From positions 262,449 through 326,448 of the forward strand of contig JANYBV010000038.1 in assembly GCA_025360605.1 (NCBI GenBank): a DNA stretch of 64,000 bases, read 5' to 3'. The position numbers were made by a program, and so were the translations under genes. Each line of letters begins with the position of its first letter. Position 1 is the first letter of the stretch. Origin of the DNA: Alphaproteobacteria bacterium. Its GTDB lineage: Bacteria; Pseudomonadota; Alphaproteobacteria; Rickettsiales; SXRF01. Shown here piece after piece: positions 2,534 through 6,270 of this stretch. The notes beneath the pieces are model-generated. The model searched no databases. It had not been told where the DNA came from and saw nothing but the letters and a program-made list of their open reading frames with translations.

Positions 2534-4723
2534 TTATCTTTTGGCTACATACAACGGTTTTTCCAGCGTAGCAGCAGACGTGGTCTGCCTGCGTTGCCAT
2601 TCGCTCTTGAATTCTCCCAGAAGCGATTGAATTTCTTCATCGTTATCAGTCACATAAATCCCTAGTTTTTCCGACAGGGTACGGTCACTTCCTGGGCGTG
2701 ATTCGGCTTTCAAGGTTTTGTATTTATCACCAAAAAGTCTTTCCAAGACAGGGTCATAGAATGGGTCCTGACCGTCAATCAGCGGCGGATTCTGGATGAT
2801 GATCTTTTTGCGCGCTATCTCTGGAACATCCTTATAGACTTCCTTCATCAGCAGTATGGCGGCCATTTCCTGCACGGTTCCGGCTCCACCTGGTCTGATA
2901 ATGATTGCGTCATCGGTCAGGGCGATCATTTGCCCCATGCGTTCGTAAATATCCTGATTGAGGATGGCGACATCCAGATCCTCCGGCAATTTGCCCAGCT
3001 TGGTTTCCGACTTCACGATTTCCGGTGTTGAAAATCCGGCTTCAAAGGTGTGTTGCCCTGCGGTTTTTCCTTCATGATAACCCTCATGCAGCGACCCCAT
3101 CAGGTAGCGATCGCCGCCACCGAATACGACGCCGAATTCATTCTCTGCCAGCCATTTACCGAAGGCTTTCGTGTCATCGTTCAGCTGTAAATTTTCGCTG
3201 CCGGCTGACAAAAAGACCCCCACCTTGAAAATACCCTCGCCTTTGGTAACGGCTTCTTCAAATTGCTGTCTGCCGCCTAAATCTTCATTGTTCTGTGTGA
3301 CGAGTGCGGGCGGGCGGTAATAGGTTTCTCGGTAATGATCTAAAAGCTTGTCTCTTGCATCATTCAACTGGCCCAGATCGACACCTTCTAGAACATCGAA
3401 ATACAGCGTGCGGCGAAGGTTGACACCGTCATTTTCAATACCTGCAGGTTTTATCTGGTCAAGCCCAAGCGAGTAATCCTTGAGCATGCCGCTTTGCACC
3501 AGATGGTCAAAAATTTCAAAATCCCTGTCATAGACACCCTTGCCGGTCTTGTCTTTGAGATTAAGTACGATGAGCGGCTTGTAGGAATCACGGAGGTTTA
3601 GCTGCTTGGCAACGACGCACGATGACAGCATAAACTGCCGTGCGATAGCGGTGATATCGAGCTGGTCATTGTCCTGCTGCGCACGGTGTTGTAGCGGCGG
3701 GAGGAATAACAGCGCATCCGATTTTGCCAGTATTTCATCCGCCTTGCGGAGGTTATCGGTCATTTGTGCGGCAAAATCTATGATATCGGTGCCATTCCCC
3801 TCGCGGTTTGACTTGCGCATACGCTGGAGGAAACCCTCTTTCCTGCGATCTGACGCGAGAAGTGCATCCCCTGTCATCATGGTATTGGATACGGCAAATG
3901 GCTCAGTGGTTTTTACCTTACGCTTCCATTGATGGGCGGGTTCAATGCCAAGTTTACTGGCAAATGCCTCGATAATTTGGGCGCGTGGATGCTTGAGAAG
4001 AAAAAAATCAGGATTTCCACCTGAGATGCCATCCATGGTAGTGACGTGTTCTTTGACCGCATCTTCTGGTTTAACCGGTTTTTGTACATCAAATACCAGC
4101 GCCGTTTTGCCGTCGAGTTTTTGCGGTTCATCCTTCAGATGGGCCAGTGACTGGTACTGGAATACCACAGAAACCGAGCTGGGGACGGTTTTTACATCGT
4201 CGCCGAGCAGTTCTTTGGCGCCGGTTTTGACCCCCTGAACCAATGTTGAATTTCCGGACATGGCTGAAATGAAGGGTGCCAGTTCGGGGCCAGGGAACGT
4301 GGGGGCGTTGATCGCCCGTGTCAGGGTATGCTTATCGACATAACGCTTGAATCCGTCGGTTTCAGCCAGACTTTTATCGCCAATTTTGTCAATGCCCCAC
4401 TCAAAATCATCCACGGCGACATGGATACGTTTGGGATCGTATTCGGTGCCATATTTTTTGCAGATTTCCAGCACGTTTTCGTGCAGAGGATCCCCGTTGG
4501 TCTGCATGCGCTCGGGGATGGTGCCAAATTCGACAAATTTAGCATTCGCATTGCCTTCCACCGATCCTTCAAATTCATCGGTCGCGTGCTGCGTACCGGC
4601 GATATCGCGCACGTCGATGAAGGCAATTGGAAGATGCAGTGCATCCGCGATCATTTGGTAGTGGGCTATTTTCTCAACGGTAGAGGTTTTGAGAAATACA
4701 AAATGAATCGATGAATCAGGCAT
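2534..4723 (-). CDS. HAM1/ITPase-like plus LOG-family fusion protein
   Basis: A 729-residue protein with two recognisable nucleotide-acting regions. The C-terminal third (about 498-690) is a LOG/lysine-decarboxylase-like Rossmann domain: FGGGDRYLMG at 534-543 and PGGAGTVQE at 611-619, with a preceding YERMGQM in which the family arginine is kept. LOG enzymes cleave the N-glycosidic bond of nucleoside monophosphates. The N-terminus (about 1-155) resembles HAM1/RdgB inosine-triphosphate pyrophosphatases: an opening beta strand, then STVEK, GNANAK (57-62), VAVDD (102-106) and PGPELAPF (144-151). The middle (about 280-480) is not recognised. No signal peptide. Start ATG has an AGGGG ribosome site. 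It follows the CDA-fold gene at 4843-6270 by 119 bases on the same strand. LOG call is firm; the HAM1 call is my pattern match. Confidence 0.8.
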   Translation of the reverse strand: MPDSSIHFVFLKTSTVEKIAHYQMIADALHLPIAFIDVRDIAGTQHATDEFEGSVEGNANAKFVEFGTIPERMQTNGDPLHENVLEICKKYGTEYDPKRIHVAVDDFEWGIDKIGDKSLAETDGFKRYVDKHTLTRAINAPTFPGPELAPFISAMSGNSTLVQGVKTGAKELLGDDVKTVPSSVSVVFQYQSLAHLKDEPQKLDGKTALVFDVQKPVKPEDAVKEHVTTMDGISGGNPDFFLLKHPRAQIIEAFASKLGIEPAHQWKRKVKTTEPFAVSNTMMTGDALLASDRRKEGFLQRMRKSNREGNGTDIIDFAAQMTDNLRKADEILAKSDALLFLPPLQHRAQQDNDQLDITAIARQFMLSSCVVAKQLNLRDSYKPLIVLNLKDKTGKGVYDRDFEIFDHLVQSGMLKDYSLGLDQIKPAGIENDGVNLRRTLYFDVLEGVDLGQLNDARDKLLDHYRETYYRPPALVTQNNEDLGGRQQFEEAVTKGEGIFKVGVFLSAGSENLQLNDDTKAFGKWLAENEFGVVFGGGDRYLMGSLHEGYHEGKTAGQHTFEAGFSTPEIVKSETKLGKLPEDLDVAILNQDIYERMGQMIALTDDAIIIRPGGAGTVQEMAAILLMKEVYKDVPEIARKKIIIQNPPLIDGQDPFYDPVLERLFGDKYKTLKAESRPGSDRTLSEKLGIYVTDNDEEIQSLLGEFKSEWQRRQTTSAATLEKPLYVAKR

Positions 4724-4842
4724 GTCGGCCCCTGTTATTGGTTACAATAAATTAATATTTATAGGCCTTTAAAGCAATAGTAATGAACATCAGCAAGCTC
4801 TCTTTTGTTACGGTTTAGTGACCGAATTAATCTATTGATAAA

Positions 4843-6270
4843 TTAATGCAATTTTGGCATTTCAAGATCTTTTACCATTTTAGGGTTCACATAGTTAGGG
4901 CCAAAAGCCTCACGCACACTGTCGGTAACGGCCATTGCACAGAGCTTTTCTTCGGTCAAGGTTCCGTCATTGACGGGGATGATTATCAGTTTTGCATCAT
5001 CGCCTGAATGTAGATTTTTGATAATCCGGTTCAATGCGGCCGGATCGGGCATTTTGAGCGCGTGTGGGATATCACCCGACATTTCTTCGCGTAGGCGCTT
5101 GTCGTTAAACGTCATCACATACACTTCCTCAAAACCCTTCTGGTTGTAGGCATTGCTGAGTGCGGTCGGGGCGGCAGCCGGTTTGGCTGGTAGCCAGTCT
5201 TTTCCGTCCACAAGAGTGGCGGAGAAAAATTGGCCTTTTTTATTTTTGATGAGGACGACGGTGATTTCGGCATTGTTTGTATCGGATATTCTACCGGCAT
5301 GCTCGGCATGCGCTTCTTTCATGAGCTGTAGCATAGCACGGTTGATATTTTCGATACCAGGATTGCCTTCCAGCTGCGGCAGGGACTGCGTTACGAACGA
5401 TTCTCGCCTGAGCAATATATCGCGGATGGCTTTGGGGAGAACCACACTGTCCCCGTCAGCGGGGGCATCCCGTAGCGCTTGTGTTAGCGCTGTTTCCAGT
5501 GGCAGCGCCTGCACCGAAGCTTGCGTAATGTAATCATACCCTGCCTTGATGACAGCTTTGCTGCTATCATCCAGTTCAACATATTCTTTGCGCGGAAACA
5601 TGGTGCCGTGATCGAGTTCCCACGCCGCATTCTTGCTACTCGGGCCATTGGGGTTGCGGTCGAGGGTGACATCCATGGTGCCGTCATTGGCGGGAATCAT
5701 GATAAATCTGGCGTTCTTTGTGTGGTTGCGCAGGTTTTGCCGGCATTCGCCGCACAGGCATCCCAGCGGCTGGTCCTCATCATCTTTGAGGGAGCCGTCC
5801 GGTTGTTTGGTGCTGATGGCGGCCATGAGGTAGACGGCCTTGAACTGTACATCCGTACTGCTCAGGGCCTGCTGGGTTTTGCCAAGCATGTGTGTTTCGG
5901 CGCAGCCCCTTCCGGCAAACGGGTCAACGATATAGAGCTGGTTGGTCACCTCGATAAAGAGCTGGTTGGTATCGGTAATGCCCGCCGACGCGGTATAATA
6001 CTTGCCGCCGTCAGGGAAGCCGTGCGGGCGGTGCTGCGCCAGCAGTTGGTTCATGAGCGTCAGTTCTTCCTGATCGTTTAGATGCAGGTGTGCTTTGAAA
6101 TCACCGTAGCTCAGCGGGCGGGCGCTCTCTCGGGAGGTGAACATGATTTCACGGCCAATTTCCTCCCATGCGATTGCGATGGGTGGTTTTTTGGGCAGGA
6201 CAACGACGCCATGATTATGCTTCGGTGCATGGTCGTGAACATTGGGTACGCCGTAGCGTTTGTTGTCCAT
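4843..6270 (-). CDS. Tandem cytidine-deaminase-fold protein
   Basis: A 475-residue soluble protein whose first half carries the zinc motifs of the cytidine deaminase superfamily: GRGCAETHM (C123, E125) and CLCGECRQNL (C173, C176). That is a CAE plus CxxCRQ arrangement as in cytidine/blasticidin-S deaminases. The second half appears to be a diverged copy: LLAQ..SAGITDTN, FKAVYLM and ARFIMIPANDGTM (188-199) recur as MKEAHAEHAGRISDTN, FEEVYVM and AKLIIIPVNDGTL (426-438), but the CAE and CxxC residues are absent there, so it is probably non-catalytic. It lies just upstream of the HAM1-like/LOG fusion on the same strand, which suggests a joint role in nucleotide turnover. Substrate is unknown. Confidence 0.72.
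   Translation of the reverse strand: MDNKRYGVPNVHDHAPKHNHGVVVLPKKPPIAIAWEEIGREIMFTSRESARPLSYGDFKAHLHLNDQEELTLMNQLLAQHRPHGFPDGGKYYTASAGITDTNQLFIEVTNQLYIVDPFAGRGCAETHMLGKTQQALSSTDVQFKAVYLMAAISTKQPDGSLKDDEDQPLGCLCGECRQNLRNHTKNARFIMIPANDGTMDVTLDRNPNGPSSKNAAWELDHGTMFPRKEYVELDDSSKAVIKAGYDYITQASVQALPLETALTQALRDAPADGDSVVLPKAIRDILLRRESFVTQSLPQLEGNPGIENINRAMLQLMKEAHAEHAGRISDTNNAEITVVLIKNKKGQFFSATLVDGKDWLPAKPAAAPTALSNAYNQKGFEEVYVMTFNDKRLREEMSGDIPHALKMPDPAALNRIIKNLHSGDDAKLIIIPVNDGTLTEEKLCAMAVTDSVREAFGPNYVNPKMVKDLEMPKLH

Follow-up and report, generated by a model that had tools for sequence, protein, structure and literature searches.

An adjacent gene pair encoding a HAM1-SLOG-LOG fusion and a tandem cytidine-deaminase-fold protein, with a possible role in clearing, or perhaps sensing, unusual nucleotides in uncultured alphaproteobacteria

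Results

Gene pair between miaA and ilvB

Two adjacent genes on the minus strand, at the coordinates given in the earlier note, lie between miaA and ilvB in the 64,000-nucleotide stretch of alphaproteobacterial DNA analyzed here (the window). The upstream gene of the pair (4843..6270) encodes a 475-amino acid (aa) protein with two cytidine-deaminase-fold domains in tandem (open reading frame; AlphaFold2 pLDDT 82), and is separated by 119 bp from a gene (2534..4723) whose 729-aa product was recognized as a HAM1-SLOG-LOG fusion from its open reading frame, a profile-HMM domain map, and an AlphaFold2 model. The genes around the pair are housekeeping genes (miaA, ilvB, serB, and degP), and the miaA product, IPPT, was confirmed in the window. 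Also adjoining ilvB is a gene for a 157-aa protein without a Pfam family (176-649), with 39% identity to the gene at the same position in G001 (G-numbers label the genomes compared and L-numbers the loci). Pfam searches with single window proteins detected LOG alone in the 729-aa protein and no family in the 475-aa protein, and NCBIfam returned weak LOG and cytidine-deaminase matches far under their cut-offs. PADLOC gave no match above noise on the locus, and PHROGs nothing beyond noise or a generic Rossmann match.

A divergent HAM1 domain at the N-terminus of the fusion

Residues ~4-261 of the fusion (3941..4714, minus strand) were assigned to a divergent HAM1/ITPase domain based on profile comparison with RdgB, HAM1 structures, and residue counts. 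PF01725 (Ham1p_like) did not match the window protein alone, and matched 9 of 25 relatives of the fusion when each was searched singly. A profile of the domain aligned end to end with RdgB of the same order (hhalign 98.3%, E 1.3e-14, 199 columns), and the AlphaFold2 model of the 729-aa protein (pLDDT 78, pTM 0.84) matched HAM1 structures over residues 6-261, including 1vp2 (Z 12.5), the ITP complex of E. coli RdgB (2q16, Z 12.1), and the dITP-KomBC complex of Kongming (9xvc, Z 11.3). The ITPase fold thus spans the whole domain according to both profile and structure matches, and the absence of a HAM1 fold from residues 1-270, which the earlier note had named as grounds for refutation, was not observed.

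Shared with the HAM1/ITPase family are the fold, the catalytic Asp and Glu, the triphosphate-binding lysines, and a C-terminal S-x-R-A. The equivalents of RdgB K13, E41, K53, and D69 are conserved as K18 (24/25 relatives), E50 (25/25), K62 (24/25), and D106 (25/25), the roles of K13 and K53 having been described for RdgB (PMC3899018), and R247, which matches an RdgB catalytic/phosphate-site residue, is present in 21 of 25. Unlike RdgB, the family of the window protein is fused to SLOG and LOG domains and has lost the base-recognition motifs: GFGYDP occurs in none of 25 fusion relatives compared with 18 of 19 RdgB proteins, and SHR has become S/H-x-R, with its His replaced. Since GFGYDPxF and SHR are not kept, the domain, judged from its residues, is a divergent paralogue rather than a standard ITPase.

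SLOG and LOG domains of the fusion

The C-terminal part of the fusion is a LOG (nucleoside 5'-monophosphate phosphoribohydrolase) domain (residues ~497-708; 2600..3235, minus strand), supported by a PF03641 match above the gathering cut-off at residues 558-661 (29.7 versus 27 bits) and by LOG structures that match the AlphaFold2 model with Z up to 21.9. Together with the HAM1 assignment, this establishes the HAM1-like/LOG fusion that the earlier note had read from the translation. Between the two domains we found a feature that the note had not named, a degenerate SLOG domain (residues ~281-467; 3323..3883, minus strand) without PGGxGTxxE, which is homologous to the LOG domain (hhalign E 1.5e-8, 83 columns); this assignment comes from profile comparison, the structure search barely covering the middle domain, which is possibly a pseudo-dimer partner of the LOG domain.

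Like LOG/PpnN proteins, the window protein has the fold, the active-site motif PGGXGTXXE (PGGAGTVQE, residues 611-619; 2867..2893, minus strand), and the catalytic Arg and Glu. R595, G612, G615, T616, and E619 are each present in all 25 relatives. In C. glutamicum LOG, Arg99 and Glu122 have been proposed to be catalytic, and Lys100 and Glu121 bind adenine (PMC4979012). In contrast to LOG/PpnN, these base-pocket residues are replaced in most members of the window family, the Lys100 position being Met or Leu in 23 of 25 relatives (M596 in the window) and the Glu121 position Gln or His in 18 of 25 (Q618 in the window). The window protein further differs in carrying HAM1 and an additional, degenerate SLOG domain on one chain with LOG and in scoring far under the TIGR00730 and LOG equivalog cut-offs, including 22.6 versus 300 bits for the cytokinin LOG equivalog NF058542. 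Longer fusion relatives (~900-1000 aa) carry extra N-terminal sequence, with a weak LOG-profile match in two (E 3e-4 and 6e-4).

K18, E50, K62, and D106 of HAM1, R595 and E619 of LOG, and the majority of motif residues persist in 23-25 of the 25 relatives (~20% identity), from which we infer that both domains are live enzymes acting on a common unusual base. Because both base pockets are altered, the substrate is probably neither ITP/XTP nor a cytokinin nucleotide.

Tandem deaminase protein

The N-terminal deaminase domain of the 475-aa protein (residues 64-233; 5572..6081, minus strand) has a complete zinc site, C123-A-E125...C173-x-x-C176, with E125, C173, and C176 invariant. Residues 64-233 of the model matched yeast CDD1 and mouse CDA with Z ~14 (best 14.2) and TadA-type deaminases with Z ~8. 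The C-terminal deaminase-fold domain (residues ~300-465; 4876..5373, minus strand) has lost its zinc ligands, and is homologous to the N-terminal half (hhalign N versus C half, E 4.7e-11), so that the tandem CDA-fold reading of this gene is upheld. PF00383 matched 15 of 21 relatives of the protein. The N half looks active and the C half dead, an arrangement shared, along with the CDA fold and the CAE/CxxC zinc site, with cytidine deaminases of the E. coli Cdd type. Unlike those enzymes, the window protein is 475 aa long with an N-terminal extension and a long linker, and falls far under the TIGR01354 equivalog cut-off (14.5 versus 113.65 bits).

Distribution of the fusion and its linkage to deaminases

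Of the 263 genomes of the order, ~26 were found to encode a HAM1-bearing fusion protein, as were members of several further orders or families of the class. In a 398-genome sample across the phylum, a HAM1 domain of the fusion type was found only in the window's genome and in G006. The distribution is patchy. Searches of phage records and viral contigs gave no fusion relatives. A search of genome contigs with a single-protein query gave no match; the broad alignment of 25 relatives contained no segment of sufficient conservation for such a search, and one with six closer alignment rows gave five close relatives, all from metagenome-assembled genomes titled Rickettsiales, Alphaproteobacteria, or Pseudomonadota bacterium; the genomes compared here are probably metagenome assemblies as well. 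Besides the fusion, the window genome encodes an ordinary RdgB as well as a stand-alone LOG.

In 7 of 34 loci, the immediate same-strand neighbor of the fusion is a deaminase gene; these seven represent at most about five independent contexts when each shared locus is counted once. The other 27 loci have no deaminase gene in that position. The fusion and the tandem CDA are adjacent in the window, G001, G011, G022, and G059, so the pair, which the earlier note allowed might never co-occur elsewhere, recurs in four further genomes. In G567 and G650, a different PF00383-type protein lies beside the fusion in another gene order. Five of the seven pairings have a 4-bp overlap or a gap of at most ~11 bp, and the deaminase motif was rare among ~1,000 other fetched ORFs (those fetched as CDA relatives excluded). 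The proposal that the two genes form one module is thus well supported, with this pair or an equivalent deaminase-fusion pair in seven genomes.

Tandem CDA genes often lie elsewhere, for example between mutS and plsX-fabH; family f29 (L092:1546-7990, L093, and L097) has one directly 3' of mutS and 5' of plsX-fabH, without the fusion. G022 (L034:1434-9063) carries a five-gene, nucleotide-type cluster, in which a divergent SLOG-LOG and a Bd3614-like deaminase are followed by three genes with 4-bp overlaps, namely those for the tandem CDA, the HAM1-SLOG-LOG fusion, and an adenosine-deaminase-family protein. Among the loci checked, only G022 has an adenosine-deaminase-family gene beside the module. 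A GTP cyclohydrolase II-like gene joins the fusion and deaminase in G567 and G650. The product in G567 (L156:11336-13396) has 686 aa, PF12471 and PF00925 domains, and an extra C-terminal region, and its gene is likely the first of an operon with the fusion and deaminase. For a URC-pathway reading of this partner, we found no supporting literature. Other arrangements include separate, adjacent HAM1 and LOG-SLOG genes in G294 (another genome of the class), an RNase R-like gene ending ~12 bp ahead of a HAM1-LOG fusion gene in G397 (L155:6999-11414), two SLOG-LOG genes in tandem without HAM1 in G478 (L157:8728-11274), and SLOG-LOG proteins of 350-480 aa without HAM1 in several genomes of the order.

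History of the miaA locus

G001, of the same genus as the window, carries the pair at the same site on one continuous contig with conserved neighbors. Identities between the two genomes are 81% for IlvB, 68% for MiaA, 67% for SerB, 79% for DegP, 83% for HflC, and 77% for HflK, with 72% for RdgB, which is encoded elsewhere, but 44% for the deaminase and only 22% for the fusion. In the fusion tree, the window grouped with G006, G007, G009, and G010, and G001 with G059 (support 100/100), while G011, where the deaminase gene adjoins miaA on a contig of only 4.4 kb, fell in a third clade. The deaminase tree conflicts with this: G001 joined the window there (83/73) and G059 joined G011 (93/94), with a clade (starred in the tree) made up of the window, G001, and G051 standing apart from G059 and G011. 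On this evidence, the miaA locus holds three ancient fusion types between well-conserved neighbors. The module thus retains its composition as its parts are swapped. Instead of transfer, old paralogues may have been lost differentially.

Discussion

Building on the observed domains, the conservation of their catalytic residues, and the recurrent linkage to deaminases, we infer activities, a reaction order, and a type of substrate for the module. Our best reading, to which we give roughly even chances, is an enzyme that clears nucleotides by channeling NTP to NMP and on to the base, partnered by a deaminase. The HAM1 domain would hydrolyze one particular non-canonical (d)NTP, yielding (d)NMP and pyrophosphate, the LOG domain on that polypeptide would then split the (d)NMP into (deoxy)ribose-5-phosphate and the free base, and the neighboring deaminase would act on the released base or nucleoside for reuse or disposal. 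As internal pseudo-dimer partner, the middle SLOG domain would probably complete the LOG active site, and the dead deaminase half may likewise complete that of the deaminase. This reading is favored by the conserved catalytic residues of both HAM1 and LOG, and because the fusion joins consecutive steps of a pathway, the same two proteins being encoded by adjacent genes in G294. Yeast genetics has placed Log1 downstream of Ham1 in the detoxification of non-canonical nucleotides (PMC5940212), and the order proposed here matches it, with HAM1 and LOG acting sequentially in both cases, although the yeast proteins are separate and ordinary and have no deaminase gene partner. The partners are also catabolic-type enzymes (the tandem CDA in five genomes, CDA and the adenosine-deaminase-family protein in G022, and the G567/G650 set), the neighbors are housekeeping genes, and no relative occurs in phage records or viral contigs. 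Against clearing, plain housekeeping is already covered by the genome's own RdgB and stand-alone LOG, the distribution is patchy with most fusions lacking an adjacent deaminase, and a sanitation enzyme would not usually be replaced at a fixed locus. Sanitation or salvage had been preferred in the earlier note on the grounds that no phage genes adjoin the pair; it is still our favored guess, but that argument has less force than it seems to have, since replacement in place and exchange of partners, as in conflict systems, are seen at the locus.

This behavior bears on an immune reading, modeled on the Kongming system, whose components are an adenosine deaminase (KomA), a HAM1 protein (KomB), and a SIR2 protein (KomC). 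KomA helps to make dITP (with kinases), which binds KomB and activates KomC, whereupon NAD is destroyed (PMC12948488, PMC12774641). By analogy, the deaminase would make a deaminated nucleotide during infection, HAM1 would sense the triphosphate, and LOG would destroy nucleotides and stop phage growth, a possibility that we regard as the main rival, though less likely than not. The module resembles KomA-dITP-KomB-KomC in its parts list, combining a deaminase, HAM1, and a nucleotide-destroying domain, and the Kongming structure 9xvc is among the HAM1 matches. The different fusion clade at the miaA locus of G001, set between neighbors of much higher identity, and the conflict between the trees are likewise what such a reading could draw on. 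However, the domain in the effector position is LOG by both Pfam and structure rather than SIR2, the window deaminase has the CDA rather than the ADA fold, and HAM1 is fused to the hydrolase. KomB was not among the profile-search matches, in which other HAM1 proteins were best (E 0.005), the PADLOC match was at noise level only, the neighbors are housekeeping genes, and the HAM1 catalytic residues are intact, where a pure sensor could have lost them. As the window has neither an ADA-type KomA nor a SIR2-type KomC, we do not file the module under Kongming. It is conceivable, if somewhat doubtful, that it represents a second branch of non-canonical-nucleotide immunity, in which the deaminase makes the signal, HAM1 reads it, and SLOG-LOG strips bases from nucleotides, evolving by part-swapping at a fixed chromosomal site and analogous to Kongming without being homologous to it as a system.

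Two further explanations concern the gene neighborhood itself. The genes may function independently, their adjacency reflecting no more than chance or shared ancestry, as the many fusions without an adjacent deaminase and the many tandem CDAs elsewhere, such as beside mutS, might suggest; this is improbable given that the deaminases next to the fusion come from two different families and mostly lie at very short distances from it, and that the pairing outlasts replacement of either partner. A role in turning over N6-modified adenine nucleotides derived from tRNA (i6A, cytokinin-like) would connect the miaA neighbor with the cleavage of cytokinin nucleotides by LOG, and miaA does adjoin the fusion or its deaminase in seven loci of family f1. 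Outside that family, the fusion was not found beside miaA, and the replacement of both adenine-binding residues of LOG also makes this a highly improbable explanation.

No description of the HAM1-LOG fusion or of its deaminase linkage was found in the profile libraries and literature searched. The pair is also present in other uncultured members of the Alphaproteobacteria, and its role may be to clear unusual nucleotides or possibly to sense them. Since catalytic residues are conserved in both domains, clearing and signaling should be separable by a few point mutants. In the case of signaling, the module would add a second immune system in which a deaminase is combined with HAM1. If the fusion clears nucleotides, it would be a physical form of the Ham1-to-Log1 pathway inferred in yeast, and would point to an unusual nucleotide in these bacteria.
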